The translations under genes were made by a program, and so were the position numbers. A stretch of DNA of 64,000 nt from Modestobacter lapidis (lineage in GTDB: Bacteria; Actinomycetota; Actinomycetes; Mycobacteriales; Geodermatophilaceae), in assembly GCA_019779905.1 (NCBI GenBank), contig JABAKE010000002.1, positions 1 through 64,000 of the forward strand. The letters are read 5' to 3'. The notes under the pieces were generated by a model, which searched no databases, was not told the DNA's origin, and saw only the letters and a list, made by a program, of their open reading frames with translations. Shown here in pieces: positions 5,027 to 20,214 of this stretch. Positions within the stretch are counted from its first letter, which is position 1. The number at the start of each line of letters is the position of its first letter.

Positions 5027-6256
5027 TCAGCTGAGGTCCCGGATGACGGCGTCGGCGAGCAGCCGGCCGCGGTCGGTGAGGACGGCGCGGCCCCCGGCGT
5101 GCGGCGCCGGCTCCAGCAGCCCGCGGACGACGGACTCCGCCGCCCGCGCCCGCCCGGCGTCGGACAGGGCCTCCAGGGGTAGCCCGTCACGCAGGCGCAG
5201 CCCGAGCATGACCCGCTCGAGGGCCTGGTCGTCCGGGGTGAGCAGCTCCGCGTCGGCGGCCGGGTGCAGCCCGCCGGCCAGCCGGTCGGCGTACGCGGCC
5301 GGGTGCTTCACGTTCCACCAGCGCAACCCGCCGACGTGCGAGTGCGCGCCGGGCCCCACCCCCCACCAGTTCGCGTTGGCCCAGTACAGCTCGTTGTGCC
5401 GGCACCGGGCGGCCCGGTCGCGCGCCCAGTTGGACACCTCGTACCAGCCCAGCCCGGCACCACCGAGCACCCGGTCCGCCTGCTCGTAGCGGTCGGCCAG
5501 GACGTCGTCGTCGGGCATCGGCAGCTCGCCGCGGGCCACCCGCCGGGCCAGCCGGGTGCCCTGCTCGACGATCAGCGCGTACGCGCTGACGTGGTCGACC
5601 GGCGCGGCGAGGACGGCGTCCAGCGAGGCTGCCCAGTCGGCGCCGGTCTCCCCCGGTGCGCCGTAGATGAGGTCCAGGTTCACGTGCTCGAAGCCGGCGG
5701 CCCGCGCCTCGCGCGCCGCCTGCACCGCCCGGCCGGGGGTGTGCCGGCGGTCCAGCACGGCGAGCACGTGCTCGGCGGCGGACTGCATGCCCAGGCTGAT
5801 CCGGGTGAAGCCGCCGGCGCGCAGGGTCGCCAGCGACTCCGGCGTCACCGACTCGGGGTTGGCCTCGGTGGTGACCTCCACATCGGGCGCGACCGGGAAC
5901 AGCTCGCGGACGGCGTCCATCACCGCCACCAGATCCGCGGCCGGCAGCAGCGTCGGGGTGCCACCGCCGACGAACACCGTCTGCACCGCGGGGCGGTCGG
6001 GCCCGAGCACCTCGGCGGCCAGCCGGAGCTCGGCGATCGCGGTGCCGGCGTACTCGGTGCGGTTGGCACCGGGGCCGAGCTCGTCGGAGGTGTAGGTGTT
6101 GAAGTCGCAGTAGCCGCAGCGGGTGGCGCAGAACGGCACGTGCACGTAGAGCCCGAAGGGGGTCCTCGCCAGCCCGGCGCGGGCGCTCTCGGGGAGCATC
6201 TCCGGGCCGGCCGGGAGGGCCGGGGTCTGGCCGAGCAGCGGCAGGGTCGTCGTCAT
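5027..6256 (-). CDS. hemW: HemW-type radical SAM heme chaperone
   Basis: A 409-residue radical-SAM protein with the [4Fe-4S] motif CATRCGYC (Cys43, Cys47, Cys50) shortly after FGLYVHVPF, the GGGTPTLL segment, and the HemN/HemW C-terminal part (HNELYWANANWWGVGPGAHSH). HemW family members were long called oxygen-independent coproporphyrinogen III oxidases but act as heme chaperones; they lack the extra N-terminal cysteine of true HemN. The CxxxCxxC pattern followed by GYCDF fits HemW. Start ATG 6256 has GGAGG six bases upstream. In Gram-positive genomes hemW often sits close to lepA/hrcA; here lepA is about 10 kb away, so the sel and ugp genes appear inserted between them. Confidence 0.9.
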   Translation of the reverse strand: MTTTLPLLGQTPALPAGPEMLPESARAGLARTPFGLYVHVPFCATRCGYCDFNTYTSDELGPGANRTEYAGTAIAELRLAAEVLGPDRPAVQTVFVGGGTPTLLPAADLVAVMDAVRELFPVAPDVEVTTEANPESVTPESLATLRAGGFTRISLGMQSAAEHVLAVLDRRHTPGRAVQAAREARAAGFEHVNLDLIYGAPGETGADWAASLDAVLAAPVDHVSAYALIVEQGTRLARRVARGELPMPDDDVLADRYEQADRVLGGAGLGWYEVSNWARDRAARCRHNELYWANANWWGVGPGAHSHVGGLRWWNVKHPAAYADRLAGGLHPAADAELLTPDDQALERVMLGLRLRDGLPLEALSDAGRARAAESVVRGLLEPAPHAGGRAVLTDRGRLLADAVIRDLS

Positions 6257-6294
6257 CTGGCCTCCAGTGTGCGCCAGTCGGGCAGGCTGCCCAG

Positions 6295-8040
6295 TCAGCG
6301 CAGCCGGCGGGTGTTGTCCGGCAGCCGCACGGTCACGCCACGGGCGTCCAGCCACTCGGCCAACGGGACGGCGACCCGGCGGCTGGTCCCCCACGTCTGC
6401 CGGGCCTGGCTGAGGGTGAACGGCTGCGGGATGGCGGCCAGCCGGGCCCGCGCCACCTCCGCCACCCCAGGAGCCAGGTAGATGCCGTCGGTGATCCGCA
6501 CCAGCTGCTCGTCCCGCACGGCGGCGGCGAGCTCGCGCGGTCCCAGCCCGGCGGCGGCCAGGTCCCCGGCCTCGGGGGCGGCGAACGGCTCGTCGGTCAG
6601 CCGCGCGCGGATGGCCTCCACCGCCCGCTGGACCGCCGGCGGCAGGCCCACCCCACCGACGACCACCCGGCCGCCGCGCAGCGCCAGCGGCGGCCGCAAC
6701 AATCCGCCGACCAGGTCGGCGTCCGGCAGGTCCAGCTCCTGCCGGACCCACTCGACCGGCGGCCCGGGCTCCAGCGGCAGCCGGGCGCGGTAGGACGCCA
6801 CGAGGGGCAGCACCCGGCCGGCCAACTGGTCGACCAGCCCGGGCGCCAGCAGCCACGGCCCGTGCGCCGTCGCCTCGGCCGGCACCGGCCAGCCCATCGC
6901 GACGAAGTCGGCACGCCGCACCACCCGGCGGCGGGTCAGGTCGGCCAGCGCCCCCGCCTCGCCGGGCGGCTGCTCCGCCAGCTCGGCGGCCCGGGTGCGG
7001 GCCGCGCCGCGGCGGCGCAGCTCCGGCGGGTCGACGTCGCGGACGTCGGCGCCCAGTACCCGCCGGCTGCCGGGGTCGCGGAGCAGCAGCCGGTCGCCCA
7101 CCCGCAGCGGCAACGCCTCGGCCAGCCGGAGCCGCAGCGCCGTCCCGTCCAGGGGCCGCACCCGGGCCGCCACCGTCGCCGACCCGATGTGGACGACCAT
7201 CTCGGCGGGCAGTCGGTCCTCCTCGGCGGCCAGCAGGGTGACGTCGAGGTCCGCGGTGCGCCGGAACGCGTCCGGGGTGAGCAGCGCGTCGCCGCGGACG
7301 ACCTCCTCGACAGCGACCCCGCGCAGGTTCAGCGCGACCCGGGCGGTGGCCGACGCGGTCTGCACCGGCTCGCCCAGCGAGTGCAGCCCGCGCACGGTCG
7401 CCGCCCGCCCGCCCAGGTCCAGCCGGTCCCCGACCGCGACCGACCCGGCCGCGAGAGTGCCGGTGACCACCGTCCCGGCGCCGCGGATGGTGAAGGCCCG
7501 GTCGACCCACAGCCGCACCGGCGCGGTCGTGGCGGGCGCCGGCAGGCCGGCCAGCACCGTCTCCAGCACCGCGGCCACCTCCGGCACGCCCGCGCCGGTG
7601 CGGGCGCTCGCGGCCACCGCCAGCAGTCGCCCCAGCGACGTGCCGGCCAGCCGTTCGGCGGCGTCGGCGAGCACCGGCCCGGGGTCGGCGGCGTCGGCCT
7701 TGGTCACCACGAGCAGCCCGTGCCGCACGCCCAGGGCGTCGAGGACGGCGACGTGCTCGCCGGTCTGCGCCGACCAGCCGTCGTCGGCCGCGACCACGAC
7801 CAGCGCGGCCGGCACTGACCCGACGCCGGCCAGCATGTTCCCGATGAAGCGCTCGTGACCGGGGACGTCGACCATGGCCAGCCGGCGCCCCGAGGGCAGC
7901 GTCGTCCAGGCGAAGCCCAGGTCGATGGTCAGGCCGCGGCGGCGCTCCTCCTCCCACCGGTCGGGCTCCATACCGGTGAGCGCGCGGACCAGGGTGGACT
8001 TGCCGTGGTCGACGTGGCCGGCGGTGGCGATGACGTCCAT
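6295..8040 (-). CDS. selB: selenocysteine-specific elongation factor SelB
   Basis: A 581-residue GTPase. The N-terminus carries the translation-factor G1 motif GHVDHGKST (residues 8-16), DVPGHERF (G3) and VVTKAD (G4). EF-Tu-like domains II/III follow, and the C-terminal ~200 residues form the winged-helix region (ending around VRLPDNTRRL) that in characterised SelB binds the SECIS hairpin of selenoprotein mRNAs. It delivers Sec-tRNA-Sec to the ribosome. The ATG overlaps the selA stop by one base (TGATG), so selA-selB are co-transcribed and coupled. Because the local tRNA-Sec has a CUA anticodon, this SelB should promote Sec insertion at UAG. No selenoprotein gene is visible within the window. 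Confidence 0.95.
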   Translation of the reverse strand: MDVIATAGHVDHGKSTLVRALTGMEPDRWEEERRRGLTIDLGFAWTTLPSGRRLAMVDVPGHERFIGNMLAGVGSVPAALVVVAADDGWSAQTGEHVAVLDALGVRHGLLVVTKADAADPGPVLADAAERLAGTSLGRLLAVAASARTGAGVPEVAAVLETVLAGLPAPATTAPVRLWVDRAFTIRGAGTVVTGTLAAGSVAVGDRLDLGGRAATVRGLHSLGEPVQTASATARVALNLRGVAVEEVVRGDALLTPDAFRRTADLDVTLLAAEEDRLPAEMVVHIGSATVAARVRPLDGTALRLRLAEALPLRVGDRLLLRDPGSRRVLGADVRDVDPPELRRRGAARTRAAELAEQPPGEAGALADLTRRRVVRRADFVAMGWPVPAEATAHGPWLLAPGLVDQLAGRVLPLVASYRARLPLEPGPPVEWVRQELDLPDADLVGGLLRPPLALRGGRVVVGGVGLPPAVQRAVEAIRARLTDEPFAAPEAGDLAAAGLGPRELAAAVRDEQLVRITDGIYLAPGVAEVARARLAAIPQPFTLSQARQTWGTSRRVAVPLAEWLDARGVTVRLPDNTRRLR

Positions 8041-9347
8041 CAGGCCCGCACCGCCAGCACCGCGTCGCCGAGCTCGGCGTCCTGCTCGGGCAGCACGCTG
8101 CGCAGGTCCAGCACCGTGCGGCCGCCCGCCAGGTGGCCGACCACCGGGCGCGCCGCCCGGCGCAGCGGCTCGGCGTAGCCGGCCGGCAGCGAGACCGCGG
8201 CGCTGGGCAGCTCGAGCTCGGGGGCTCCCCCACCGCCGATCCGTGCGGTCGACCCGACCGCGACCGCGTCCAGCCCCGCGGCGGCCAGCCGGGCGGCCAG
8301 CGCGCCGGCCCGCCGGCGGAGGTCGGCCGGAGCGGTGTCGAGCATCCGCTGCACCGGTGGCTGCGGCCCGCGCAGCGTCGCCTCCAGCGCCGCCAGGGTC
8401 GTCTTGTCGACCCGCAGCGCACGGTAGAGCGGGTGCCGGCGCAGCCGCTGGACCAGCTCGGTGCGACCGAGGACCAGCCCGGCCTGCGGGCCGCCGAGCA
8501 GCTTGTCGCCGCTGGCCAGCACCAGGTCGGCCCCCGCCGCGAGGGTGCTCTGCAGGTCGGGTTCGTCGGGCAGCAAGGGGTGCGGGCGCAGCAGCCCCGA
8601 CCCGACGTCGGCGACCAGCGGCACGCCTGTCCCGGCGAGCGCGGGAGCGAGTTCGGCCACGTCCGCGGCGCGGGTGAACCCCCGGACGACGAAGTTCGAG
8701 GGGTGCACCTTGAGCACGACGGCGGTGTCGGGGCCCAGCGCGCCGGTGTAGTCGGCCAGCGACACCCGGTTGGTCGTTCCCACCTCGCGCAGCCGGGCAC
8801 CGGTCGCGGCCAGCAGCTCGGGGATGCGGAAGCCGTCCCCGATCTCGACCAGCTCACCCCGGGAGACCACCAGCTCCCGCCCCTGCGCGAGCGCGGTGGC
8901 GACGAGTGCCAGCGCGGCCGCGCAGTTGTTCACGACCAGCGCCGCCTCGGCCGCGGGTACCGCGGCGAGCAGGGCCCCCAGCGCGCCCTCGCCCCGGGGC
9001 CCGCGCCGGCCGGTGGCCAGGTCCAGCTCGACGTCGGTCGTGCCGCTGGCCGCGGCCACCGCCTCGACCGCGGCCGCCGACAGCGGGGCCCGGCCCAGGT
9101 TGGTGTGCACCAGGACGCCGGTGGCGTTGAGCACCGGCCGGAGACCGCCGGCGGTGCCCGGAAGCGCGGCGAGTGCCGCCCCGGCCGCGTCGGCGGGCGG
9201 CAGCTCACCCGACCGGACCCGCTGCTGGACGGTCTGCACGGCGTCCTTCACCAGCTCGCGGCCCAGCCGCGCGGCGGCGGCGGCCAGCCGGGGCTCGGCG
9301 AGGAGCGTGTCGGTGCGCGGCACCTGCCGGCGCGGATCGGCGGTCAT
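8040..9347 (-). CDS. selA: L-seryl-tRNA(Sec) selenium transferase SelA
   Basis: A 435-residue PLP enzyme of the bacterial SelA family, which converts Ser-tRNA-Sec to Sec-tRNA-Sec with selenophosphate. It has the family N-terminal segment NATGVLVHTNLGRAPL (about 74-89) and the PLP-lysine motif SGDKLLGGPQAG with Lys282. Length is close to the usual 440-470. It is read away from the tRNA-Sec gene, which lies about 90 bases upstream on the same strand, and continues into selB. A TACCCT hexamer eight bases before the ATG may be its -10, giving a leaderless or nearly leaderless mRNA. Confidence 0.95.
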   Translation of the reverse strand: MTADPRRQVPRTDTLLAEPRLAAAAARLGRELVKDAVQTVQQRVRSGELPPADAAGAALAALPGTAGGLRPVLNATGVLVHTNLGRAPLSAAAVEAVAAASGTTDVELDLATGRRGPRGEGALGALLAAVPAAEAALVVNNCAAALALVATALAQGRELVVSRGELVEIGDGFRIPELLAATGARLREVGTTNRVSLADYTGALGPDTAVVLKVHPSNFVVRGFTRAADVAELAPALAGTGVPLVADVGSGLLRPHPLLPDEPDLQSTLAAGADLVLASGDKLLGGPQAGLVLGRTELVQRLRRHPLYRALRVDKTTLAALEATLRGPQPPVQRMLDTAPADLRRRAGALAARLAAAGLDAVAVGSTARIGGGGAPELELPSAAVSLPAGYAEPLRRAARPVVGHLAGGRTVLDLRSVLPEQDAELGDAVLAVRA

Positions 9348-9434
9348 CGCCGCCGAGGGTAGGGGGCCGCGCCGACCATCCGGGGAGAGGCACCGGGCGC
9401 GGAGCCGGCCGTGGGGCCGGCCCCGCGCGACGGG

Positions 9435-9530
9435 TGGCGGAGGCGGACGGGAATCGAACCCGCCTGGCCGAGATGCTCGGCCACGTCGGCTTTAGAGGCC
9501 GCGGGGGCCACCAGACACCCTGACGCCTCC
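9435..9530 (-). tRNA. selC: tRNA-Sec with anticodon CUA (UAG-decoding)
   Basis: A 96-nt tRNA with encoded CCA (plus-strand tgg at 9435-9437) and discriminator G. The acceptor stem GGAGGCG/CGCCTCC continues into the T-stem to give 13 stacked pairs, the tRNA-Sec hallmark. The variable arm is long, TGGCCGAG-CAT-CTCGGCCA (8 bp). The anticodon loop is CTCTAAA closed by CGGC/GCCG, so U33 is followed by C34-U35-A36 and A37: the anticodon is CUA, not UCA. It lies between selA and selD. Sec tRNAs reading UAG have been reported in Geodermatophilaceae; this gene fits that group. The stem above CGGC has a G-A mismatch, which does not alter the loop register. Confidence 0.93.
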
Positions 9531-9587
9531 GCGGCCAGCGTAGGCCGGGCCTCCCCCGGGCGTGGGCATCGGCTCCGCGGCCGGGGC

Positions 9588-9602
9588 TACCGTCGGATCG
9601 TG
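9588..9602 (+). promoter_or_regulatory. leaderless promoter of selD
   Basis: The hexamer TACCGT (9588-9593) is followed by six bases and the GTG start at 9600. This is the spacing at which transcription would begin on or next to the start codon. No ribosome site is visible. It matches the architecture in front of several other genes here. Confidence 0.5.
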
Positions 9603-10613
9603 ACCGCTGCCCCCATCGCCTCCACCGTCCGGCTCACCCAGTACGCGCACGGCGGCGGCTGCGCCTGCAAGATCCCGCCGGGCGAGCTGGAGGCCGTCGT
9701 CGCCGGGCTGGTCCAGACCGGGCCGACCGACCCGGCGGCCGAGCTGGTCGTCGGGCTGGACGACGGGGACGACGCCGCGGTCGTGCGCATCGCCGGCGGG
9801 CAGGGGCTGGTGCTGACCACCGACTTCTTCACCCCCGTGGTCGACGACGCCTACACCTTCGGCCGGATCGCGGCGGCCAACGCGCTCTCCGACGTCTACG
9901 CGATGGGCGGGACGCCGGTGGTCGCGGTGAACCTGCTCGGCTGGCCCCGCGACGTCCTGCCGGCCGAGCTGGCCGCCGAGGTGCTGCGCGGCGGGCTGGA
10001 GGTCGCGCACGAGGCCGGCTGCCACGTCGGCGGCGGGCACTCGATCGACGACCCCGAGCCGAAGTACGGCATGGCGGTCACCGGGCTGGTCGACCTGGAC
10101 CGGCTGATCCGCAACGACACGGCGGTGGCCGGGACGCCGGTGTCGCTGACCAAGCCGCTGGGGGTGGGCGTGCTGAACAGCCGGATGAAGGCGACCGGAG
10201 AGGTGTCGGAGGAGGCCGTCGCCGCGATGACCTCGCTGAACCGGGACGCCGCCGCGGCCGCGGTGGCCGCCGGCATCCGGGCCGGTACCGACGTCACCGG
10301 CTTCGGCCTGCTGGGGCACCTCTACAAGATGGCCCGGGCCAGCGGGGTCACCGCCGTGGTCGACGCCGCCGCCGTTCCGTACCTGGCCGGCGCCCGGCAG
10401 GCGCTGGCCGACGGCTGGGTGTCCGGTGGAACCCGCCGCAACCTCGACTGGGTGCGCCCGCACGCCGATCTGTCCGCCGTCGGCGAGGACGAGGCGCTGC
10501 TGCTGGCCGACGCGCAGACCTCCGGGGGGCTGCTGCTCGGCGGCGAGGTGCCCGGCGCCCCGGTGATCGGCGAGTTCGTGCCCCGGCAGGAGTTCGTGGT
10601 CGTCGTCCGCTGA
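9600..10613 (+). CDS. selD: selenide, water dikinase SelD
   Basis: A 337-residue selenophosphate synthetase that makes the selenium donor for SelA. The N-terminal catalytic motif is HGGGCACKIPP with Cys21, Cys23 and Lys24, so the residue that is Sec in some homologues is Cys here and no recoding is needed. The AIRS-type ATP-binding region follows (VGLDDGDDAAV, TTDFFTPVVDD, AAANALSDVYAMGG, GGHSIDDPEPKYG). The GTG at 9600 begins where family similarity begins and sits on a leaderless promoter. It is divergent from the tRNA-Sec/selA/selB group, completing the Sec biosynthesis set. The last codons (cgtcgtccgctga) are the first bases of a tandem 82-bp repeat. Confidence 0.95.
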   Translation: MTAAPIASTVRLTQYAHGGGCACKIPPGELEAVVAGLVQTGPTDPAAELVVGLDDGDDAAVVRIAGGQGLVLTTDFFTPVVDDAYTFGRIAAANALSDVYAMGGTPVVAVNLLGWPRDVLPAELAAEVLRGGLEVAHEAGCHVGGGHSIDDPEPKYGMAVTGLVDLDRLIRNDTAVAGTPVSLTKPLGVGVLNSRMKATGEVSEEAVAAMTSLNRDAAAAAVAAGIRAGTDVTGFGLLGHLYKMARASGVTAVVDAAAVPYLAGARQALADGWVSGGTRRNLDWVRPHADLSAVGEDEALLLADAQTSGGLLLGGEVPGAPVIGEFVPRQEFVVVVR

Positions 10614-10872
10614 CGGCATCGGGAGCATCGCAGCGAGCGCCAGCGAGCGAGGAGCGGACCGGGGCCGGAAGCGGACCAGTGCCGTCGTCCGCTGACGGCA
10701 TCGGGAGCATCGCAGCGAGCGCCAGCGAGCGAGGAGCGGACCGGGGCCGGAAGCGGACCAGTGCCGTCGTCCGCTGACGGCATCGGGAGCATCGCAGCGA
10801 GCGCCAGCGAGCGAGGAGCGGACCGGGGCCGGAAGCGGACCAGTGCCGTCGTCCGCTGACCGCATCGGGAGC
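10601..10872. repeat. 82-bp tandem repeat (3 full copies plus partial) at the 3' end of selD
   Basis: Copies start at 10601, 10683 and 10765, with a partial fourth at 10847-10872. They are essentially identical until a C for G change in the fourth. The first 13 bases of the unit are the last codons and TGA of selD, so duplication began inside the gene. Each unit contains an internally repetitive GCAGCGAGCGCCAGCGAGC stretch followed by GAGGAGCGGACC. Confidence 0.95.
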
Positions 10873-10972
10873 CCACCGGCGGGCGCCTAACGGGCCGTCG
10901 CAGGGCTGCGGGGCCGGCGACCGGTTCCGGTTTCCGTTACCGAGGCGTGTCCCCGGCGGGCCTGCTGGCAGT

Positions 10973-10987
10973 TATCTTCTCGCCGTG
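10973..10987 (+). promoter_or_regulatory. leaderless promoter of the ugp-like operon
   Basis: TATCTT (10973-10978) is followed by six bases and a GTG at 10985. By the local rule this places the transcription start on that GTG, the first codon of a small ORF that overlaps the first permease gene. Confidence 0.5.
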
Positions 10988-11107
10988 AGGACGACGTCGT
11001 CGGTCATCCCGGCAGGCACCGGACACCGTGTTCACCCGCCGGTGCCGCCGCTGGCGCCCGTCCGCCACGTCCCGTTCACCCGGCCCGGACAGGGTCCCCC
11101 GCTGTGA
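10985..11107 (+). CDS. possible leaderless 40-codon upstream ORF
   Basis: The frame runs GTG AGG ACG ACG ... CCG CTG TGA and encodes 40 residues rich in Pro, Val and His (MRTTSSVIPAGTGHRVHP at the start). Its stop overlaps the GTG start of the permease gene by four bases (GTGA, 11104-11107). A TATCTT -10 sits six bases before it, so it would be the 5' end of the operon mRNA. It has no homologue I recognise. It could be a leader peptide that couples translation to the permease, which itself has no good ribosome site; or the permease may start differently and this frame be incidental. Its existence is an inference from promoter spacing and overlap. Confidence 0.45.
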   Translation: MRTTSSVIPAGTGHRVHPPVPPLAPVRHVPFTRPGQGPPL

Positions 11108-12084
11108 GTGCCCAGCCGATCGCTGCTACCCGGGGAACGTCCTCGGCATCGGCTCCCCCGGCCGGCACCCCGGCCCGGCCCGCCGCCAAGGCCGGCGCGA
11201 ACCCGCCCGGCCACCGGCGGCGCGACATCCTGCTCGCGGCCGCCTTCCTGCTGCCCAACCTGGTGCTGCTGGTCGCCTTCACGTACCGCCCGCTGGTGGA
11301 CAACATCCGGTTGTCGTTCACCGACTGGAACATCTCCGCACCCATGGCGTCGTTCATCGGCGTCGACAACTACGTGGAGTGGTTCACCAGCGACGACAGC
11401 CAGCTGGTGCTCTGGAACACCGTCGTCTTCACCGGCGCGGCCGTGCTGGGGTCGATGGTGATCGGGCTGGCGCTGGCACTGCTGCTGGACCAGAAGCTCT
11501 TCGGTCGCAACGCCGTGCGCTCGCTGGTCTTCGCGCCGTTCGTGCTGGCGGGCGCCGCGGTCGGCGTGGCCTTCCAGTTCGTGTTCGACCCGACGTTCGG
11601 CCTGGTGCAGGACCTGCTCGGCCGGGTCGGCGTCGAGGCCCCGGCGTTCTACCAGGACCCGGAGTGGGCCCTGTTCATGGTCACCGTCACCTACATCTGG
11701 AAGAACCTCGGCTACACCTTCGTCATCTACCTGGCCGCCCTGCAGGGGCGGCGGGCCGAGCTGGACGAGGCGGCCGAGATCGACGCCGCCTCGACCTGGA
11801 CGAAGTTCCGCCGGGTCACCTGGCCGCAGCTGCGCCCGGCGACGTTCTTCCTGCTCATCACCGTGCTGCTCAACAGCTTCCAGGTCTTCGACGTGATCGA
11901 CACGATGACCCGCGGTGGTCCGCTCGGCAACGGAACGACGACGATGGTCTACCAGGTCTACCAGGAGACGTTCGTGAACCAGCGGGCCGGTTTCGGCGCC
12001 ACCGTGGCCACCATCATGTTCCTGGCCCTGCTGGTCATCACCCTGGTACAGGTCCGCGTCATGGAGCGGGGGCGGGAGGCGTGA
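11104..12084 (+). CDS. CUT1-family sugar ABC transporter permease (UgpA/MalF-like)
   Basis: A 326-residue inner-membrane permease with six predicted helices after a ~37-residue Ala/Pro-rich cytoplasmic N-terminus. The EAA loop is present in the family form (LDEAAEIDAASTWTKFRRVTWPQLRP), which docks on the ATPase. It begins with GTG 11104 inside the stop of the upstream small ORF and ends overlapping the next permease by four bases (GTGA). Order permease-permease-binding protein-ATPase is that of glycerol-3-phosphate (Ugp) and related sugar importers. Confidence 0.88.
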   Translation: MSAQPIAATRGTSSASAPPAGTPARPAAKAGANPPGHRRRDILLAAAFLLPNLVLLVAFTYRPLVDNIRLSFTDWNISAPMASFIGVDNYVEWFTSDDSQLVLWNTVVFTGAAVLGSMVIGLALALLLDQKLFGRNAVRSLVFAPFVLAGAAVGVAFQFVFDPTFGLVQDLLGRVGVEAPAFYQDPEWALFMVTVTYIWKNLGYTFVIYLAALQGRRAELDEAAEIDAASTWTKFRRVTWPQLRPATFFLLITVLLNSFQVFDVIDTMTRGGPLGNGTTTMVYQVYQETFVNQRAGFGATVATIMFLALLVITLVQVRVMERGREA

Positions 12085-12992
12085 CCGCGCTCGCCCCGCA
12101 GGACCGCCCGGAGAGCCGGACGAGCGACTCCCCGTCGCCGGCCCCGCCGAGCGCCGCACCGCACGAGCGGTCCAGCCCGCTGAGCCGGGTCGGCGGCTAC
12201 CTCGGCCTGCTGCTGGTGATCCTCGTCGTCGCCCTGCCCCTCTACTGGATCCTGATCTCGTCGCTGAAGGAACGGCCGGACATCTACACCGTGCCGGTCA
12301 CCTGGGTGCCGGATCCGTTCACGGCCGCGAACTACTCCCGGGTCGGCACCGGCGTCGCGTTCACCGACTACCTGCGCAACTCGATCATCATCACCACGGT
12401 GCTCACGGTCGTGGAGGTCACGCTCGGGGTGCTGTCGGCCTTCGCCCTGGCCTTCCTGCGATTCCCGGGGCGCAGCCTGGTCCTGCTGTTCGTGATCGCC
12501 AGCCTGATGGTCCCCAACCAGGTGACCGTGATCAGCAACTACGCGCTGGTCGCCCAGCTCGGCTGGCGGAACACCTTCGCCGGGATCATCGTCCCGCTGG
12601 CCGGCGTCGCGTTCGGCACCTTCCTCCTGCGCAACCACTTCCTGTCGCTGCCGAAGGAGATCATCGAGGCGGCCGAGATGGACGCGGCCGGGCCGCTGAA
12701 GATGCTGTGGCGGGTCGTGCTGCCGATGTCCTGGCCCACTCTGATCGCGTTCGTCCTCATCACCATCGTGACCGAGTGGAACCAGTACCTCTGGCCACTG
12801 CTGATGGCGGACGACTCGTCCACCGCCCCCCTCCCGGTCGGGCTCGCCCAGCTCCAGGACACCGCGGGGCTCACCAACTGGGGTCCGGTCATGGCCGGGA
12901 CGGTCCTGACCATGCTGCCCATCCTGGTGATCTTCCTGCTGCTCCAGCGGCACATGATCAAGGGCCTGACCGCCGGGGCGGTCAAGGGTTGA
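12081..12992 (+). CDS. CUT1-family sugar ABC transporter permease (UgpE/MalG-like)
   Basis: A 303-residue second permease with six helices and the EAA motif IIEAAEMDAAGPLKMLWRVV. The N-terminal ~35 residues are Ser/Pro-rich and cytoplasmic. The GTG start at 12081 overlaps the stop of the first permease, showing a coupled operon. Together with the first permease it forms the heterodimeric channel. A 91-base gap separates it from the binding-protein gene, where a separate ribosome site allows higher expression of the lipoprotein. Confidence 0.9.
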   Translation: MTALAPQDRPESRTSDSPSPAPPSAAPHERSSPLSRVGGYLGLLLVILVVALPLYWILISSLKERPDIYTVPVTWVPDPFTAANYSRVGTGVAFTDYLRNSIIITTVLTVVEVTLGVLSAFALAFLRFPGRSLVLLFVIASLMVPNQVTVISNYALVAQLGWRNTFAGIIVPLAGVAFGTFLLRNHFLSLPKEIIEAAEMDAAGPLKMLWRVVLPMSWPTLIAFVLITIVTEWNQYLWPLLMADDSSTAPLPVGLAQLQDTAGLTNWGPVMAGTVLTMLPILVIFLLLQRHMIKGLTAGAVKG

Positions 12993-13083
12993 CCGGGCCC
13001 CTCGCACACACCCCGGACCTGCTCCGACCGCAGTACGTCCCACCGAGCCACGCCATGCAGTCGACGACGACGGGAGCACGACC

Positions 13084-14379
13084 ATGAACCCTCTGGACCG
13101 CCGCAGGTTCCTCCAGCTGAGCGGGCTCACCCTCGGCGCGGTCGGGCTGTCCGCCTGCGCGGGTACCGGCTCGACCGAGCAGTCCGGCGACGGCGGCCCG
13201 GTCGAGACGCTGACCATGTGGTCCAACCACCCCGGCGAGTCCAAGCCGGTCGAGTCGCAGCTGCTCGACGCCTTCACCGAGGAGACCGGCATCGCGGTCA
13301 ACCTGGTGACCGCCGGCGCGTCCTACGAGGAAGCCGCCCAGCGGTTCAACGCGGCACTCTCCGGCGGGGAACTGCCCGACGTCGTCATCGCCTCCGACGT
13401 CACCTGGTTCAACTTCGCGCTCAACGACGCGATCACCCCGATGGACGACCTGTGGCAGGCCGTCGGGGTGGACACCGCCGGGTACGTCGACTCGCTGCGG
13501 GAGGACTACGAGTTCGAGGGCGCCCACTACGCGCTGCCGTACGCCCGGTCGACGCCGCTCTACTACTACAACAAGCCGATGTGGGCGGCCGCCGGTCTCC
13601 CCGACCGCGGCCCGGAGACGTGGGCGGAGTTCGCCGAGTGGGCACCCCGGCTGGCCGCCGCCAATCCCGCGGTAGCCCCCATGGTGGTGCCCGACGGGAG
13701 CAACTACCTCGACTGGTACTTCCAGGGCATGATCTGGACCTTCGGCGGGGCGTACTCCGACGAGTGGGAGCCGACGTTCACCTCCCCGGAGTCCCTGGAG
13801 GCCGGGCGCTTCCTGCAGGACATGTACCGGCAGAACTTCATCGCCATCTCCAACGACGCGAACAACCAGTTCGGCGCAGCCCAGGCCGCCTCGCTGCTGC
13901 AGTCGACGGGGTCGCTCGGCGGGCTCAAGGAGACCGCCCAGTTCGAGTTCGGCACCGCGTTCCTGCCCGGTCCGCCGCCCGGCACCCCGACCGGTGGGGC
14001 CGGCCTCACGATCCCGGCGAACATCTCCGACGAGCGCAAGGAGGCCGCGATGCAGCTCATCGCGTTCCTCACCAACACCGACAACACGGTGACCTTCAGC
14101 CAGGCGACCGGGTACATGCCGGTGCGCCAGGACGCCATCGACGACCCGGAGATGGTCGCGTACCTGGAGGAGAACCCGAACGCGCGGACCGCCCTGGAGC
14201 AGCTCGCGGTGACCGCGCCGCAGGACTACGCCCGGGTGTTCCTGCCCGGCGGCGGCGCCCGGATCGGTGCCGGCCTGGACCGGATCACCATCGGCGGGGA
14301 GGACGTGGAGACCGTCTTCCGGCAGCTGGGCGAGGAGAGCCAGCAGGTCTACGAGCGGGACATCGAGCCGAAGCTGTGA
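13084..14379 (+). CDS. sugar/glycerol-3-phosphate ABC transporter substrate-binding lipoprotein (UgpB-like)
   Basis: A 431-residue SBP_bac_1 protein. The N-terminus DRRRFLQLSG is a Tat-like signal and LSAC ends in the lipobox cysteine Cys25, so it should be exported and lipid-anchored. The mature protein has the CUT1 pattern TMWSNHPGES...DAFTEETGI and YEEAAQRFNAALSGGELPDVV, which resembles UgpB-like binding proteins of actinobacteria. The ligand is therefore probably glycerol-3-phosphate or a related phosphodiester or sugar; this is not proven by sequence. The encoding ATG has GGAGCACGACC just upstream. The gene is third in the operon. Confidence 0.85.
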   Translation: MNPLDRRRFLQLSGLTLGAVGLSACAGTGSTEQSGDGGPVETLTMWSNHPGESKPVESQLLDAFTEETGIAVNLVTAGASYEEAAQRFNAALSGGELPDVVIASDVTWFNFALNDAITPMDDLWQAVGVDTAGYVDSLREDYEFEGAHYALPYARSTPLYYYNKPMWAAAGLPDRGPETWAEFAEWAPRLAAANPAVAPMVVPDGSNYLDWYFQGMIWTFGGAYSDEWEPTFTSPESLEAGRFLQDMYRQNFIAISNDANNQFGAAQAASLLQSTGSLGGLKETAQFEFGTAFLPGPPPGTPTGGAGLTIPANISDERKEAAMQLIAFLTNTDNTVTFSQATGYMPVRQDAIDDPEMVAYLEENPNARTALEQLAVTAPQDYARVFLPGGGARIGAGLDRITIGGEDVETVFRQLGEESQQVYERDIEPKL

Positions 14380-14410
14380 CGGCGCGGGCGGCGACGAGCG
14401 GGAGCCGGCC

Positions 14411-15523
14411 ATGGCGTCGGTGACGTTCCAGGAGGTCACCCGGTCCTTCGCGCCGGGCGAGCGCCCGGCGGTGGACCGGCTGGACCTGGAGGTCCAGGAC
14501 GGCGAGTTCCTGGTCGTCGTGGGCCCGTCGGGGTGCGGGAAGTCGACGAGCCTGCGGATGCTCGCCGGCCTGGAACCGGTCACCTCGGGGCGGGTGCTGA
14601 TCGACGGTGTCGACGTCACCGGCCGCCGGGCCCGTGATCGGGACGTCGCGATGGTCTTCCAGAGCTACGCGCTGTACCCGAACATGACCGCCGGGGAGAA
14701 CATGGCGTTCGCCCTGAAGAACCTCGGCGTCAGCAAGGCCGACATCAGCACGCGGGTGGCCGAGGCCGCCCGCGTGCTCCAGCTGGAGGACCTGCTGGAC
14801 CGCAAGCCGGCCAAGATGTCCGGCGGGCAGCGGCAGCGGGTCGCGATGGGCCGGGCCATCGTCCGGGACCCGAAGGTCTTCTGCATGGACGAGCCGCTGT
14901 CGAACCTGGACGCGAAGCTGCGGGTCTCCACCCGCGCCGAGATCGCGAACCTGCAGAAGCGGCTGGGCACGACGACCGTCTACGTGACCCACGACCAGAC
15001 CGAGGCGATGACCATGGGCGACCGGGTCGCCGTCCTGCGTGCGGGCCAGCTGCAGCAGATCGGGAGTCCCACCGAGCTCTACGAGCGGCCGGTCAACACG
15101 TTCGTCGCCGGCTTCATCGGCTCCCCGTCGATCAACCTGATCGACTCGGTGCCCGTCCGCGACGGTCGCGCGGTGCTCACGGACTCGTTGCAGATCCCGG
15201 TGCCCGGGGCCGCCGGCCGCGCCGCCGACCGGGTGACCGTCGGCATCCGGCCGGAGGGCGCCGACGTGGTGGGCGCCGGCGCCGGCAACCCCGGGGACGC
15301 CGGCCGGCTGCCCGTCCGGGTGGCCCGCGTCGAGCGCCTGGGCTCGGAGACCTTCGCGTTCGTCGACCCGGTCGGGCTGGTGGCGGGCTCCACCGGCCGG
15401 GCCGATCATCTGGTGTTCCGCCTGGACAAGCGGCTGGACGTCCGGGAGGGATCGGAGCTGGTCCTGACCGTCCACTCGGCCGAGGTGCTGGTCTTCGACG
15501 CCGCGGGTTCCGCCCTCAGTTAG
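14411..15523 (+). CDS. UgpC/MsmK-type ABC transporter ATPase
   Basis: A 370-residue ATPase with Walker A GPSGCGKST (38-46), Q-loop MVFQSYALYP, signature MSGGQRQR, Walker B VFCMDEPLSNLD and switch THDQTEAM. The C-terminal ~130 residues form the MalK/UgpC-type regulatory OB (TOBE) domain. It energises the two permeases upstream. It ends in TAG, the only intact gene in the window that does, which is notable next to a tRNA that reads UAG. The protein is already full length for its family, so the TAG is almost certainly a genuine stop. Confidence 0.92.
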   Translation: MASVTFQEVTRSFAPGERPAVDRLDLEVQDGEFLVVVGPSGCGKSTSLRMLAGLEPVTSGRVLIDGVDVTGRRARDRDVAMVFQSYALYPNMTAGENMAFALKNLGVSKADISTRVAEAARVLQLEDLLDRKPAKMSGGQRQRVAMGRAIVRDPKVFCMDEPLSNLDAKLRVSTRAEIANLQKRLGTTTVYVTHDQTEAMTMGDRVAVLRAGQLQQIGSPTELYERPVNTFVAGFIGSPSINLIDSVPVRDGRAVLTDSLQIPVPGAAGRAADRVTVGIRPEGADVVGAGAGNPGDAGRLPVRVARVERLGSETFAFVDPVGLVAGSTGRADHLVFRLDKRLDVREGSELVLTVHSAEVLVFDAAGSALS

Positions 15524-15552
15524 GCACCGGGGACGACCGCCGACGCCAGTCG

Positions 15553-15580
15553 GCTCCGGCGGCCGGGCGCGGGGCCGGAG
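15553..15580 (+). terminator. possible terminator after the ugp-like operon
   Basis: CTCCGGC (15553-15559) and GCCGGAG (15574-15580) form a GC-rich hairpin 30 bases after the ATPase stop. There is no U-tract, as is usual in this genome. Confidence 0.35.
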
Positions 15581-15612
15581 GCTCCCGCCCGGACTCCGGG
15601 CAACGGCTCTAC

Positions 15613-15661
15613 GCGTGCGGGGACGGTACCTGGTCGCGGTGTCGTCCGAAGGACGACCATG
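15613..15661 (+). repeat. dispersed structured repeat, copy B
   Basis: This segment matches the element after hemW in about 38 of 45 positions. It contains CGGTACCTGG and a perfect hairpin GTCGTCC-GAA-GGACGAC, where the hemW copy has GTGGTCC and GGATCAC. The paired differences keep the stem intact. It lies between the ugp-like operon and the MDR gene, immediately before that gene's -10. Confidence 0.55.
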
Positions 15662-15664
15662 CAA

Positions 15665-15679
15665 TAGCGTCGGGCCATG
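15665..15679 (+). promoter_or_regulatory. leaderless promoter of the MDR oxidoreductase
   Basis: TAGCGT (15665-15670) lies six bases before ATG 15677. No ribosome site is present, and the structured repeat ends just upstream. Confidence 0.5.
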
Positions 15680-16642
15680 CTCGCAGCTTTCGTGTCGACG
15701 CCCGCTCCCGACGACCCGCTCTCCGTCCTGGAGGTCGGCGACCGCCCGGCCCCCGAGGCGCCCGACGACTGGACGACGATCGACGTCAAGGCCGTCTCGC
15801 TCAACCACCACGACCTGTTCAGCCTCCAGGGCATCGGCCTGCCGCAGGAGCGGATGCCGATGATCCTGGGCACCGACGCGGCCGGGCTCGACCAGGACGG
15901 CAACGGGGTCGTGGTGCACGGCGTCGTCGCCAGCCCGGGCTGGAGCGGTGACGAGACGATGGACCCCAAGCGGTCGCTGTTCTCCGAGCTGCACCAGGGG
16001 ACGATGGCCGAGCAGGTCGTCGTCCCCGAGCGGAACGTCGTCCCCAAGCCGGCCGAGCTGTCCTTCGCCGAGGCGGCCTGTCTGCCCACCGCATGGCTGA
16101 CCGCCTACCGGATGCTCTTCGTGCGGTCCGGCCTCCGCCCCGGCTCCACCGTGCTCGTGCAGGGCGCCAGCGGCGGCGTCGCGACGGCGCTGATCAAGCT
16201 GGGCAGCGCGGCCGGCTACCGGATGTGGGTGACCGGCCGCAGCGAGGAGAAGCGGGCGGCCGCCCTCGCGCTCGGCGCGGACCAGGCCTTCGAGACCGGT
16301 GCCCGGCTGCCCGCCCGGGTGGACGGCGTGATGGAGACCGTCGGCGAGGCGACCTGGTCGCACAGCATCAAGTCGCTGCGGCCCGGCGGCGTGGTCGTCA
16401 CCTGCGGCGCCACGACGGGCTTCAACCCGGGAGCCGAGCTGAACCGCGTCTTCTTCACCCAGCTGTCGGTGGTCGGCTCGACCATGGGTACCCGCGACGA
16501 GCTCGAGTCGCTCATCCAGATGTGCCGGATCACCGGCGTCCGGCCGCAGATCGACGTCGAGCTGCCGCTGACGCAGGCGGCGGAGGGCTTCGCCCGCATG
16601 CACGAGGGCCGCACCGCCGGGAAGATCGTCTTCACCGTCTGA
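15677..16642 (+). CDS. zinc-binding/MDR family alcohol dehydrogenase or quinone reductase
   Basis: A 321-residue medium-chain dehydrogenase. The N-terminal GroES-like fold (VKAVSLNHHDLFSLQG, ILGTDAAG) is followed by a Rossmann domain with VLVQGASGGVATALIKLG as the NAD(P)-binding loop. The structural zinc cysteines of classical ADHs are absent, so it is closer to the quinone-oxidoreductase-like or 'zinc-binding dehydrogenase' MDR group. Substrate unknown. It is a single gene convergent with lepA. Confidence 0.85.
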   Translation: MLAAFVSTPAPDDPLSVLEVGDRPAPEAPDDWTTIDVKAVSLNHHDLFSLQGIGLPQERMPMILGTDAAGLDQDGNGVVVHGVVASPGWSGDETMDPKRSLFSELHQGTMAEQVVVPERNVVPKPAELSFAEAACLPTAWLTAYRMLFVRSGLRPGSTVLVQGASGGVATALIKLGSAAGYRMWVTGRSEEKRAAALALGADQAFETGARLPARVDGVMETVGEATWSHSIKSLRPGGVVVTCGATTGFNPGAELNRVFFTQLSVVGSTMGTRDELESLIQMCRITGVRPQIDVELPLTQAAEGFARMHEGRTAGKIVFTV

Positions 16643-16655
16643 CGGCGGCCGCCGT

Positions 16656-16676
16656 CCCGCGCCGCACCGGCGCGGG
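16656..16676. terminator. bidirectional hairpin between MDR gene and lepA
   Basis: CCCGCGCCG-CAC-CGGCGCGGG is a perfect 9-bp stem with a three-base loop, placed between two convergent genes. A second perfect palindrome, GACGGCGGCCGCCGTC, spans the MDR stop region (16641-16656). Confidence 0.6.
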
Positions 16677-16746
16677 GCGGCGTCCCCCGGCACCGTTCAG
16701 CGCGCCGCGGCGAGCCGCCGTTCGATCTCCGGGGCGACCCGGTCCC

Positions 16747-18585
16747 TCACTTCTTGGTGGGCTCCGCGTTGGAGAGCGCGGCCACGAAGGCCTCCTGGGG
16801 GACCTCGACGCGGCCGACCATCTTCATCCGCTTCTTGCCCTCCTTCTGCTTCTCCAGCAGCTTGCGCTTGCGGGTGATGTCACCGCCGTAGCACTTGGCC
16901 AGCACGTCCTTGCGGATGGCGCGGACCGTCTCCCGGGCGATGACCCGGGAGCCGACAGCCGCCTGGATCGGCACCTCGAACTGCTGGCGCGGGATCAGCT
17001 CGCGCAGCTTGCCGGCCATCATCACGCCGTAGCTGTAGGCCTTGTCCTTGTGCACGATCGCGCTGAACGCGTCGACGGCCTCGCCCTGCAGCAGGATGTC
17101 CACCTTGACCAGCTGCGACTCCTGCTCGCCGGCCTCGGCGTAGTCGAGGGAGGCGTAGCCGCGGGTGCGGGACTTCAGGGCGTCGAAGAAGTCGAAGATG
17201 ATCTCACCGAGCGGCAGGGTGTAGCGGAGCTCGACCCGGGACTCCGACAGGTAGTCCATGCCGGTCAACGAGCCCCGGCGGCCCTGGCAGAGCTCCATGA
17301 TCGCGCCGGTGTAGTCGCTGGGGGCGATCAGCGTGGCGTTCACGATCGGTTCGAACACCTTGTCGATCTTGCCCTCGGGCCAGTCGCTGGGGTTGGTGAC
17401 GGTGTGCTCGGTGCCGTCCTCCATCACCACCCGGTAGACGACGTTGGGCGCGGTGGAGATGAGGCTGAGCCCGCCCTCGCGCTCCAGCCGCTCGCGCACG
17501 ATCTCCAGGTGCAGCAGCCCCAGGAAGCCGACCCGGAAGCCGAAGCCGAGGGCCGCGGAGGTCTCCGGCTCGTACACCAGGGCCGCGTCGTTGAGCAGCA
17601 GCTTGTCCAGCGACTCCCGGAGCAGCTGGTACTCGCTGCCGTCGATCGGGTAGAGGCCGGAGTAGACCATCGGCCTCGGGTCGCGGTAGCCGCCGAGGGA
17701 CTCCGCGGCCGGCCGGTGCTGGAGCGTGACGGTATCGCCGACCCGCGACTGGCGGACGTCCTTGACCCCGGTGATGAAGTAGCCCACCTCGCCGACGCCC
17801 AGGCTCTCGACCGGCTTGGGCTCCGGGGAGATGACGCCGATCTCCAGCAGCTCGTGGGTCACGTTGTTCGACATCATCTTGATCCGCTCGCGGCCGGAGA
17901 TCCGACCGTCGACGACGCGCACGTAGGTGATCACGCCCCGGTAGATGTCGTAGACGGAGTCGAAGATCAACGCGCGGGCGGGGCCGTCCGCGTCGCCGGT
18001 GGGAGCCGGGATCGTCGCCACGATGGCGTCGAGCAGCTCGGGCACGCCCTCGCCGGTCTTGCCGCTGACCCGCAGCACGTCACCGGGCTCGCAGCCGATG
18101 ATGTGCGCGAGCTCGGCGGCGAACTTCTCCGGCTGGGCGGCCGGCAGGTCGATCTTGTTGAGCACCGGGATGATCGTCAGGTCGTTCTCGATCGCCAGGT
18201 ACAGGTTGGCCAGCGTCTGGGCCTCGATGCCCTGGGCGGCGTCGACGAGCAGCACCGCGCCCTCGCAGGCCGCCAGCGACCGGGACACCTCGTAGGTGAA
18301 GTCGACGTGCCCAGGGGTGTCGATCATGTCCAGGACGTGCTCGGTGCCGGTGAGCTCGCCGGTGCGCGGGGTCCAGGGCAGCCGCACGTTCTGCGACTTG
18401 ATGGTGATGCCGCGCTCGCGCTCGATGTCCATCCGGTCGAGGTACTGGGCACGCATCTGGCGGCCCTCGACGATGCCGGTCACCTCCAGCATCCGATCGG
18501 CCAGCGTCGACTTGCCGTGGTCGATGTGGGCGATGATGCAGAAGTTCCGGATGCGGGCCGGGTCGGTGTTGGCGGGAGCAGTCAC
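16747..18585 (-). CDS. lepA: elongation factor 4 (LepA)
   Basis: A 612-residue translational GTPase, standard for the family. G1 is HIDHGKST, G3 DTPGHVDF and G4 LNKIDLP; the switch I segment RGITIKSQ is present, and the C-terminus has the LepA-specific [15 protein letters not shown] stretch that contacts the P-site tRNA. It back-translocates or remodels ribosomes under ionic stress. The GTG at 18585 (GTG ACT GCT CCC) with GGGAG nine bases before it fits the family start; the frame is open further upstream but encodes non-conserved sequence. It is divergent from rpsT, as in many bacteria. Confidence 0.95.
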
Positions 18586-18691
18586 AGTGCTCCCATCGTC
18601 CCACGGACTCCGCCCCGGCAGAGCGCTCGGCTCGCATCCGCGCCGGTATCCCGGCGACCCGGCCGTCCCGGTGCCTGCGCCCGGTCGCCGA

Positions 18692-18721
18692 TTGGGGGCC
18701 GCTGAGTGCGGCTGGTATCTT
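18692..18721 (+). promoter_or_regulatory. promoter of rpsT
   Basis: TTGGGG (18692-18697) and TATCTT (18716-18721) are separated by 18 bases, a sigma-70-like pair. The leader to the GTG start would be about 90 bases, long enough for translational control of ribosomal protein S20. Confidence 0.45.
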
Positions 18722-18818
18722 GTGAGGCCGGTCCGCTGATGCTCTGGCGTCGGGGACGCACGATCATCTGCAGCACTGTCAGAAGAACACCTTCCAGCGA
18801 GACATCCGAGGCTCACGC

Positions 18819-19079
18819 GTGGCGAACATCAAGTCCCAGCTCAAGCGGATCAAGACCAACGAGAAGGCGCGTCAGCGCAACGTCGCGGTCAAGTCCGCCC
18901 TCAAGACGCAGGTCCGGCGCTTCCGCTCGGCCGCCGACGCCGGGGACAAGGACGCCGCGACGGTCGCCCTCGTGACCGCCGGCAAGGCGCTCGACAAGGC
19001 CGCCAGCAAGGGCATCATCCACAAGAACCAGGCCGCCAACCGCAAGTCGGCGCTGGCCAAGAAGGTCGCGAGCCTCTGA
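18819..19079 (+). CDS. rpsT: 30S ribosomal protein S20
   Basis: An 86-residue basic protein that matches S20 throughout ([20 protein letters not shown] at the start; [19 protein letters not shown] at the end). It binds 16S rRNA early in 30S assembly. The start is GTG 18819 with GAGGCTCACGC before it. The gene is monocistronic and divergent from lepA, and is followed by a strong hairpin. Confidence 0.97.
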
Positions 19080-19124
19080 GCTCCGGGCGTCGCCGACGGT
19101 CCAGCGACCGGCGCCGCCCCCACC

Positions 19125-19160
19125 GACGAGCCCCCCTCCCGCACGGGACGGGGGCTCGTC
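19125..19160. terminator. rpsT/holA bidirectional terminator
   Basis: GACGAGCCCCC...GGGGGCTCGTC forms a stem of more than 11 pairs with an inner TCCC/GGGA, between the convergent rpsT and holA genes. Confidence 0.8.
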
Positions 19161-19203
19161 GCGTTCGCCGGCCCAGGAGACACCCGCCGGCGCACTGCCC
19201 GGC

Positions 19204-20214
19204 TCAGCGGCCGGGACGCACCCGGGCATCGCGGCCGCGGGCGGACTCGGCACGGATCGCCACGATCCGCCGCACCGCCCGTTCCAGCGCGTAGTCCGCG
19301 CTGGCCGCGACCCCCTTCACGTCGGCGTTGAGCTCGGCGGCGACCCCCATGGCCTGCTGCAGGGCGTCGATCGTCCACCCCCGCGCCTGGGCCTGGGCCT
19401 TCCGCACCTTCCACGGCGGCAGCTTCAGCGTCCGGGCGAGGTCGCCGACGTCGTTGGTGTTCAGCGAGGCCACCCGGGCCGCCGTCCGTACCCCGTCGGC
19501 CAGCGCGTCGGCGATGAGCACGTGGGCCACCCCGCGCTGCAGCGCCCAGCGCAGCATCTCCACCGACCCCGCGGTGTCACCCATCAGGACCCGCTCGGCC
19601 ACGGTGAACCCGGTGACCTCGGCCTGCCCCCGGTGGAAGCGGGCCACCGCCTCCGCGTCGATGGAGCCACCGAAGTCCGAGACCAGCTGGCCGGCCGCCG
19701 AGGACAGCTGGCGCAGGTCGTTGCCGACCGCCTCGAGCAGGGCGGTGGCCGCATCCGGGCTGATCCGCCCACCCAGCCGGCGCACCTCGTTGCGGACGAA
19801 GGCCATCCGCTCCCCCGCCGAGCTGATCTTCGGGCACTCGTCGACGGCGGCCCCCGCGGCCCTGAACGCCTTGAGCAGCGCCTCGTTCCGCTTGCCACCG
19901 GAGTGGACCACCACCAGCGTGAGGTCGGGGTCGGGCTGCGTGGCGTAGCCGACGAGCGCCTCGGCCAGCGCGGCCGCCGCCTCGTGCACCCCGAGCACGA
20001 CGACGAGCCGGTGCCCGCCGAACAGCGAGGGGGTCAGGGCGTCGGCCAGCGTGCCCAGCGCCAGGCCGGCGGCGACCAGCTCGTGCTCCTCCGAGTCAGC
20101 GTGCCGCGCGCGGATGGCGGCCCGGACGGCGGAGACCGCGCGGGCGCGCAGCAGCTCCTCCTCCCCCACCACGACCCGCAGGTGGGACGTCGGTTCCGGG
20201 GGTGCCGCTGCCAC
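19204..20214 (-). CDS. holA: DNA polymerase III subunit delta
   Basis: A 336-residue clamp-loader delta subunit. It has the family N-terminal LRVVVGEEELLRARAV and the PSLFGGHRLVVV segment. The mid-region holds LVVVHSGGKRNEALL and ISPDAATALLEAVGNDLRQLSSA, and the C-terminal bundle WKVRKAQAQARGW is present. It opens the beta clamp during replication. It starts with GTG 20214, well inside the 3' end of comEC, which runs to 20034 in another frame, so the two overlap by 181 bases. The hexamer CACCAT six bases before the GTG could give a leaderless internal transcript. Confidence 0.9.
   Translation of the reverse strand: MAAAPPEPTSHLRVVVGEEELLRARAVSAVRAAIRARHADSEEHELVAAGLALGTLADALTPSLFGGHRLVVVLGVHEAAAALAEALVGYATQPDPDLTLVVVHSGGKRNEALLKAFRAAGAAVDECPKISSAGERMAFVRNEVRRLGGRISPDAATALLEAVGNDLRQLSSAAGQLVSDFGGSIDAEAVARFHRGQAEVTGFTVAERVLMGDTAGSVEMLRWALQRGVAHVLIADALADGVRTAARVASLNTNDVGDLARTLKLPPWKVRKAQAQARGWTIDALQQAMGVAAELNADVKGVAASADYALERAVRRIVAIRAESARGRDARVRPGR

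Follow-up and report, generated by a model that had tools for sequence, protein, structure and literature searches.

The selenocysteine (Sec) locus of the soil actinobacterium Modestobacter lapidis raises the question of which codon specifies Sec in this organism. In the stretch of 64,000 nucleotides analyzed here (positions 1 to 64,000 of contig JABAKE010000002.1, hereafter the window), a tRNA gene with the anticodon CUA is located between selA-selB and selD. A preliminary description of the locus regarded this gene as tRNA-Sec and its neighbors as intact, and proposed that Sec is probably encoded by UAG. The three neighboring genes indeed score above the respective TIGRFAM equivalog cut-offs: selA, encoding L-seryl-tRNA(Sec) selenium transferase (8040..9347, minus strand; TIGR00474, 426.4 bits, cut-off 267.9; PF03841), selB, encoding the Sec-specific elongation factor with its C-terminal winged-helix domain (6295..8040, minus strand; TIGR00475, 278.1 bits, cut-off 242.25; PF09107), and selD, encoding selenide water dikinase (9600..10613, plus strand; TIGR00476, 385.7 bits on ORF 9411-10613, cut-off 125). 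The sequence places the selD start at a GTG codon (position 9600), and the gene encodes what we take to be the Cys form of the protein, with the motif HGGGCACK. An 82-bp tandem repeat (10601-10872; 3.3 copies, 99% match) begins at the very end of selD, the stop codon of which is at 10613, and extends beyond it. At the window edge, the translation of an ORF at 33-626 on the minus strand resembles, by eye, YD/Rhs-type repeats.

The tRNA gene occupies positions 9435..9530 of the minus strand, with the anticodon at 9493..9495 on the same strand. A covariance-model search and a check of the anticodon, both suggested in the preliminary description, agree with its assignment: RF01852 (tRNA-Sec) is the sole Rfam match of this region at the cut-offs (67.7 bits, cut-off 47, E 1.2e-11), and ARAGORN reads the anticodon as cta, at tRNA position 36. 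The anticodon loop C-U-C-U-A-A-A, the 8-bp variable arm and the encoded CCA are also as claimed. Of the 13 stacked acceptor/T pairs postulated there, 12 positions are paired, one of them as G-U, and the eighth (U8 versus C) is a mismatch. By score, by the acceptor and T stack and by the long variable arm, the gene belongs to RF01852. The idea that it encodes tRNA-Pyl or some other amber suppressor tRNA, which would agree with the CUA anticodon and with the tRNA-Pyl label given by ARAGORN, has a negligible probability, considering the exclusive Rfam match to tRNA-Sec, the long variable arm that departs from the tRNA-Pyl architecture, the location of the gene between selA and selD, the CUA tRNA-Sec found in the selA locus of 39 named relatives (among the best 80 of 466 SelA loci), and the resemblance to UCA tRNA-Secs of six genomes of the same family, which coincide with the window tRNA at 79-84 of 92 positions. 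Of the 112 analyzed genomes of Geodermatophilaceae, 101, including that of the window, contain the exact 15-base CUA anticodon arm, and none contains a reversed control sequence, which excludes a chance match. With the same exact arm in 100 other genomes, it is untenable to attribute the CUA anticodon to missequencing.

The remainder of the genome, a draft assembly of 383 contigs (4.78 Mb) with a stated completeness of 100%, was searched for other components of the system. Of the three counter-indications named in the preliminary description, two were looked for here, a second tRNA-Sec with the anticodon UCA and selenoprotein genes with in-frame TGA. RF01852 has six hits in the genome, including the window gene; the other five were rejected as candidates, being identified by ARAGORN as three tRNA-Ser, one tRNA-Tyr and one tRNA-Leu (one of them, tRNA-Ser(tga), scores 48.2 bits, just above the cut-off of 47). 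No second tRNA-Sec, UCA or other, was detected in the 383-contig draft by RF01852 and ARAGORN, and no in-frame TGA was found in members of the molybdopterin, AhpC-TSA and UGSC families of this genome. What we did find is the formate dehydrogenase gene with in-frame TAG and a downstream SECIS hairpin that the same description had suggested looking for. Among six matches of the molybdopterin family, four have no stop codon, and two fall within one gene on contig C372 with a single in-frame TAG. With TAG read as Sec, a 1,115-residue stretch of this gene is formate dehydrogenase, FdhA (NF041513, 1956 bits, cut-off 1400). The TAG is at the Sec site, residue 185, in the context ENQARI-U-HSATV, and the reading frame past it is open to the end of the gene. 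Two other possible UAG targets were discarded, as the UGSC family has no match in the genome and none of its four AhpC-TSA matches contains an in-frame stop; fdhA is thereby the one UAG selenoprotein gene identified in the three families searched.

The sequence around the fdhA Sec codon, AUA-UAG-CAC, is followed by a hairpin, GGUCCCC-GGUCU-GGGGACC. A GGUCU-type apical loop is characteristic of the SECIS elements of E. coli. The stability of the hairpin in M. lapidis is modest compared with shuffled sequences (z -2.09; 6 of 200 shuffles were as good). In the alignment of 34 distinct sequences from the family, 98.7% of the cells are paired and three of the seven pairs have changed on both sides; the covariation score of 0.337, compared with 0.125 for shuffled alignments, was reached by none of 500 shuffles. 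Both the fold and the covariation over these 34 sequences identify the element as a SECIS.

The genome also contains prfA, encoding release factor RF1, with a score above the cut-off, which suggests that UAG is recoded case by case, at chosen codons, and is not reassigned everywhere. The earlier notion of a natural codon reassignment of Sec thus holds for the Sec system, with its tRNA and the fdhA TAG with a SECIS, and does not extend to the genome as a whole. Given the CUA tRNA-Sec, the in-frame UAG at the fdhA Sec site, the SECIS and the lack of a detected UCA tRNA-Sec, the Sec-insertion system of this bacterium almost certainly uses the codon UAG. In the proposed mechanism, tRNA-Sec(CUA) would be charged with serine, which SelA would convert to Sec with the selenophosphate supplied by SelD; SelB would then carry Sec-tRNA and bind the SECIS hairpin located just downstream of UAG in the mRNA. 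The predicted site of insertion in M. lapidis is the Sec codon of fdhA, and UAG codons without a SECIS would still terminate translation via RF1. This Sec codon avoids the main stop codon: among 41 window ORFs chosen for their third-position GC, the terminal codon is TGA in 38 and TAG in three, and two of the latter are doubtful as genes by their GC pattern. Such avoidance may have been a motive for the choice of UAG.

The same codon is found at the Sec site of fdhA genes elsewhere in the family. Matches to FdhA (query P0001) were detected in 100 of the 112 genomes, and all 68 family loci read at the Sec site (from the set L099-L128, L167-L186 and L190-L208) have TAG. The counts omit an fdhA copy on contig C4 of genome G080, for which the tblastn pieces do not include the Sec site, and locus L199; the apparent combination of one TGA and one TAG in the fdhA genes of G052 and G062 is explained by TGA being the gene's own terminal stop. 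Among 20 outgroup loci that were fetched, 19 have TGA and one has TGC at this site. Similarly, among the matches listed in the order-wide fdhA search, 38 from outside the family cover this site; 35 of these contain a single TGA, three no stop and none TAG. A second family with TAG is UGSC, with 95 matches in 54 of the 112 genomes: 72 contain one TAG, 23 contain no stop, and none contains TGA. In 30 loci fetched for this family, the motif codon is TAG (22) or TGC (8), and the TAG is at the motif in all 22 TAG loci. We see practically no room for the explanation that the fdhA TAG arose by nonsense mutation or serves as a true stop, with the anticodon being a product of error or drift, as nothing in the sequence was found to favor it and it is at odds with the invariant TAG at one fdhA site in the 68 family loci, the frame open to the end of the gene, the covarying SECIS, the widespread CUA arm and the presence of TAG in UGSC genes. 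For genome annotation, these data mean that TAG codons inside fdhA or UGSC genes are read as stops under the standard bacterial code, and that ARAGORN names such CUA tRNA-Sec genes tRNA-Pyl.

The distribution of the two anticodons was analyzed in the SelA loci of named genomes, of which the best 80 of 466 were taken. ARAGORN found a CUA tRNA-Sec in 39 of these 80 loci, a UCA tRNA-Sec in 28 and none in 13, and Rfam detected no tRNA-Sec in these 13 either. A 94-nt 'tRNA-Asp' predicted beside the selA gene of Actinomadura (L085) was not confirmed by Rfam. All CUA loci among these best 80 belong to Geodermatophilaceae by title, with the exception of Bacillus sp. AZ43 (SPQJ01000003.1). This record, marked as unverified, is probably mislabelled, given its CUA tRNA-Sec and the position of its SelA within the Geodermatophilaceae clade. 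A tRNA-Sec was found in 108 of the 112 whole genomes of the family. The 11 genomes without the exact CUA arm comprise two incomplete ones (G097 and G098) and nine from three genera, g6, g7 and g8 (G067-G075); seven of these nine genomes have a tRNA-Sec, in every case with UCA. The nine genomes have no fdhA match at E 1e-100, and the UGSC matches of two of them, G067 and G073, contain no stop. Identity to the window tRNA is 79-84 of 92 positions for six UCA tRNAs of the family and 65-78 for five outgroup tRNAs, which does no more than suggest a kinship of the family UCA tRNA-Secs with the window tRNA.

In the SelA tree, the window protein groups with those from 20 of the 39 named CUA loci; these 21 CUA proteins make up a single clade (SH-aLRT support of 100), which requires one anticodon change. 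Four proteins from the UCA genera of the family are placed away from this clade; a single clade uniting them with the CUA proteins was not recovered and is not rejected (p-AU 0.226). The window protein is not placed beside the Modestobacter rows, and the window belongs to Modestobacter in the GTDB sense. The distribution is most simply explained by a switch from UCA/UGA to CUA/UAG within Geodermatophilaceae, with fdhA genes acquired later then switched to UAG as well, and we infer this direction. A separate observation concerns a predicted viral contig, IMGVR_UViG_3300033168_000020, which has a UCA tRNA-Sec near its end (L187:10858-10951); its 26-base T-arm/acceptor end is identical to that of the window tRNA.

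One member of the family, Geodermatophilus sp. LHW52908 (G059), is possibly bilingual for Sec, using both UAG and UGA. It has a CUA tRNA-Sec gene and TAG in its fdhA and UGSC genes, together with a second tRNA-Sec, with the anticodon UCA (81.8 bits), on contig C17 (L158:1169-1263, minus strand). The latter is divergent to an AhpD-like (CMD) ORF (L158:1579-2157, plus strand) with an in-frame TGA at a CFYU motif. This TGA occupies the second Cys of CxxC (NRCFY-TGA-MESH; a relative has NKCYYC), and the ORF is a probable UGA selenoprotein gene. Its product shares the CFYU motif and an AhpD-like domain with the AhpD-related CFYU (seleno)protein family NF041238, but the match to that family is weak (51.8 bits, below the cut-off of 175), and the protein instead passes the cut-off of TIGR01926 (112.6 bits, cut-off 81.8). 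As no selA, selB or selD was found by tblastn in the 20-kb stretch that contains the UCA tRNA, the gene would depend on the sel genes of the host. Searches for relatives of the CMD gene gave two matches at E 1e-20 in 394 genomes of the class, both without an in-frame stop, 333 plasmid records, all with less than 60% identity, and no confirmed case in viral contigs.

A different explanation is that the UCA contig is a contamination, or that its TGA is a plain nonsense mutation, so that the genome is not bilingual. The patch with the UCA tRNA has a lower GC content (0.59-0.65) and transposases at its flanks, its tRNA-Sec coincides with the window tRNA at only 60 of 93 positions, and the stretch after the TGA, which includes a hairpin about 17 nt downstream, is no more stable in its fold than shuffled sequences (z 0.27); all of this speaks for such an explanation. 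Contamination is opposed by the adjoining bases 5300-20000 of the same contig, segments of which are 92-99% identical to other contigs of this genome and up to 92% identical to other genomes of the genus, some of them perhaps being insertion elements. Nonsense mutation is opposed by the frame and the family match, which run on through the TGA, and by its position in place of the second Cys of CxxC. On balance, we regard contamination or nonsense as unlikely. If the genome of G059 is indeed bilingual, both Sec codons can be compared in one cell.

The codon of fdhA has apparently changed more than once. A quick FdhA tree included 56 rows out of the 88 in which the site was readable, the 32 rows left out all being TAG rows of the family. 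It needs five changes from TAG to another codon or the reverse, a number that the starred branches also force; their direction is not evident from the tree itself. TAG is found separately in the main family clade, in G039 with G058, in G104, in G001, and in G097 with G053, G098, G033 and G092. As all hosts belong to Geodermatophilaceae, we infer that fdhA genes were acquired horizontally and then changed from TGA to TAG, and incoming genes seem to have been made to use UAG on several occasions. In addition, the codon preceding TAG is ATA in all 68 loci, whereas TGA in 19 outgroup loci is preceded by ATT in 18 cases and by ATA in one (L213). At other positions of these TAG genes, 42 of the 2,629 codons for Ile are ATA; including the site, the count is 110 of 2,697. 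We read this as possible selection on the codon preceding the fdhA UAG. It is no general rule of UAG-Sec, since the TAG codons of UGSC genes are preceded by GAT or GAC.

A competing explanation, which we consider a serious one with close to an even chance, is that AUA before the fdhA UAG is functionless and arose fortuitously, by descent or through conversion of a short tract by a resident gene. The two fdhA copies of G058, one acquired and one resident, do not differ at any position in more than 30 nt surrounding the Sec codon, so that a short converted tract could have brought in AUA along with UAG; the UGSC contexts and the ATA of the TGA locus L213 also fit an accident. However, acquired fdhA copies retain their own SECIS, the acquired copy in G001 has CGT-ATA-TAG versus CGG-ATA-TAG in the resident one, so that any converted tract must have been very short, and G104, with a single, outgroup-like fdhA match, still has ATA-TAG. 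Repeated re-spelling of acquired genes, if true, would provide natural replicates for studying the requirements of SelB and the ribosome as to the sequence surrounding the codon.

Taken jointly, these data lead us to a tentative reading, to which we give slightly less than an even chance. The fdhA UAG-Sec signal would include the preceding codon, and AUU-UGA would have been rewritten to AUA-UAG about five times, also in horizontally acquired genes, so that selection re-spells incoming selenoprotein genes to the Sec dialect of the host. At least one member of the family, G059, would be bilingual: its own CUA tRNA would decode UAG as Sec in the fdhA and UGSC genes, and an additional, mobile tRNA-Sec with UCA, relying on SelA and SelB of the host, would decode UGA as Sec in the AhpD-like CFYU protein.

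UAG-encoded selenocysteine of Geodermatophilaceae was reportedly described by Mukai et al. in 2016 (Angew. Chem.). We found no paper on Modestobacter and selenocysteine, and no published account of the family-wide CUA/UCA distribution, the fdhA codon counts, the repeated fdhA changes, the AUA context or a bilingual genome; the literature search mostly did not cover subscription journals, and some of this may be partly in print. According to one paper, which cites Mukai 2016, three Geodermatophilaceae genomes encode a CUA tRNA-Sec, and UAG occurs in genes for formate dehydrogenase, UGSC and AhpC (PMC5330540). Another states that Blastococcus likewise specifies Sec by UAG (PMC5133445). The preliminary description was therefore right that UAG-decoding tRNA-Sec had been described in this family, and M. 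lapidis is a further case of a published phenomenon. Its genome shares with the system of PMC5330540 tRNA-Sec(CUA), UAG at the formate dehydrogenase Sec site and the family affiliation, and UGSC genes with UAG occur both in that system and in the family genomes analyzed here. In contrast to the three such tRNAs in the genome set of that paper, the present analysis finds the CUA arm in 101 of 112 family genomes, three genera with UCA, repeated changes in fdhA and the AUA context.

Pyrrolysine insertion at UAG has in common with the system considered here the CUA anticodon of its tRNA, but the window gene is a tRNA-Sec by Rfam and is surrounded by sel genes, and UAG here would be read in a SECIS-dependent manner as Sec. 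That Sec has moved naturally, across a family, to UAG in place of UGA suggests that a recoded codon is exchangeable while the system stays functional. The canonical bacterial UGA-Sec system is that of E. coli, composed of SelABCD and acting on fdhF and fdnG. It shares with M. lapidis selA, selB, tRNA-Sec, selD, the GGUCU-type SECIS loop and formate dehydrogenase as the target. The system described here differs from it in the anticodon CUA and the codon UAG, at which it would compete with release factor RF1 and not with RF2.
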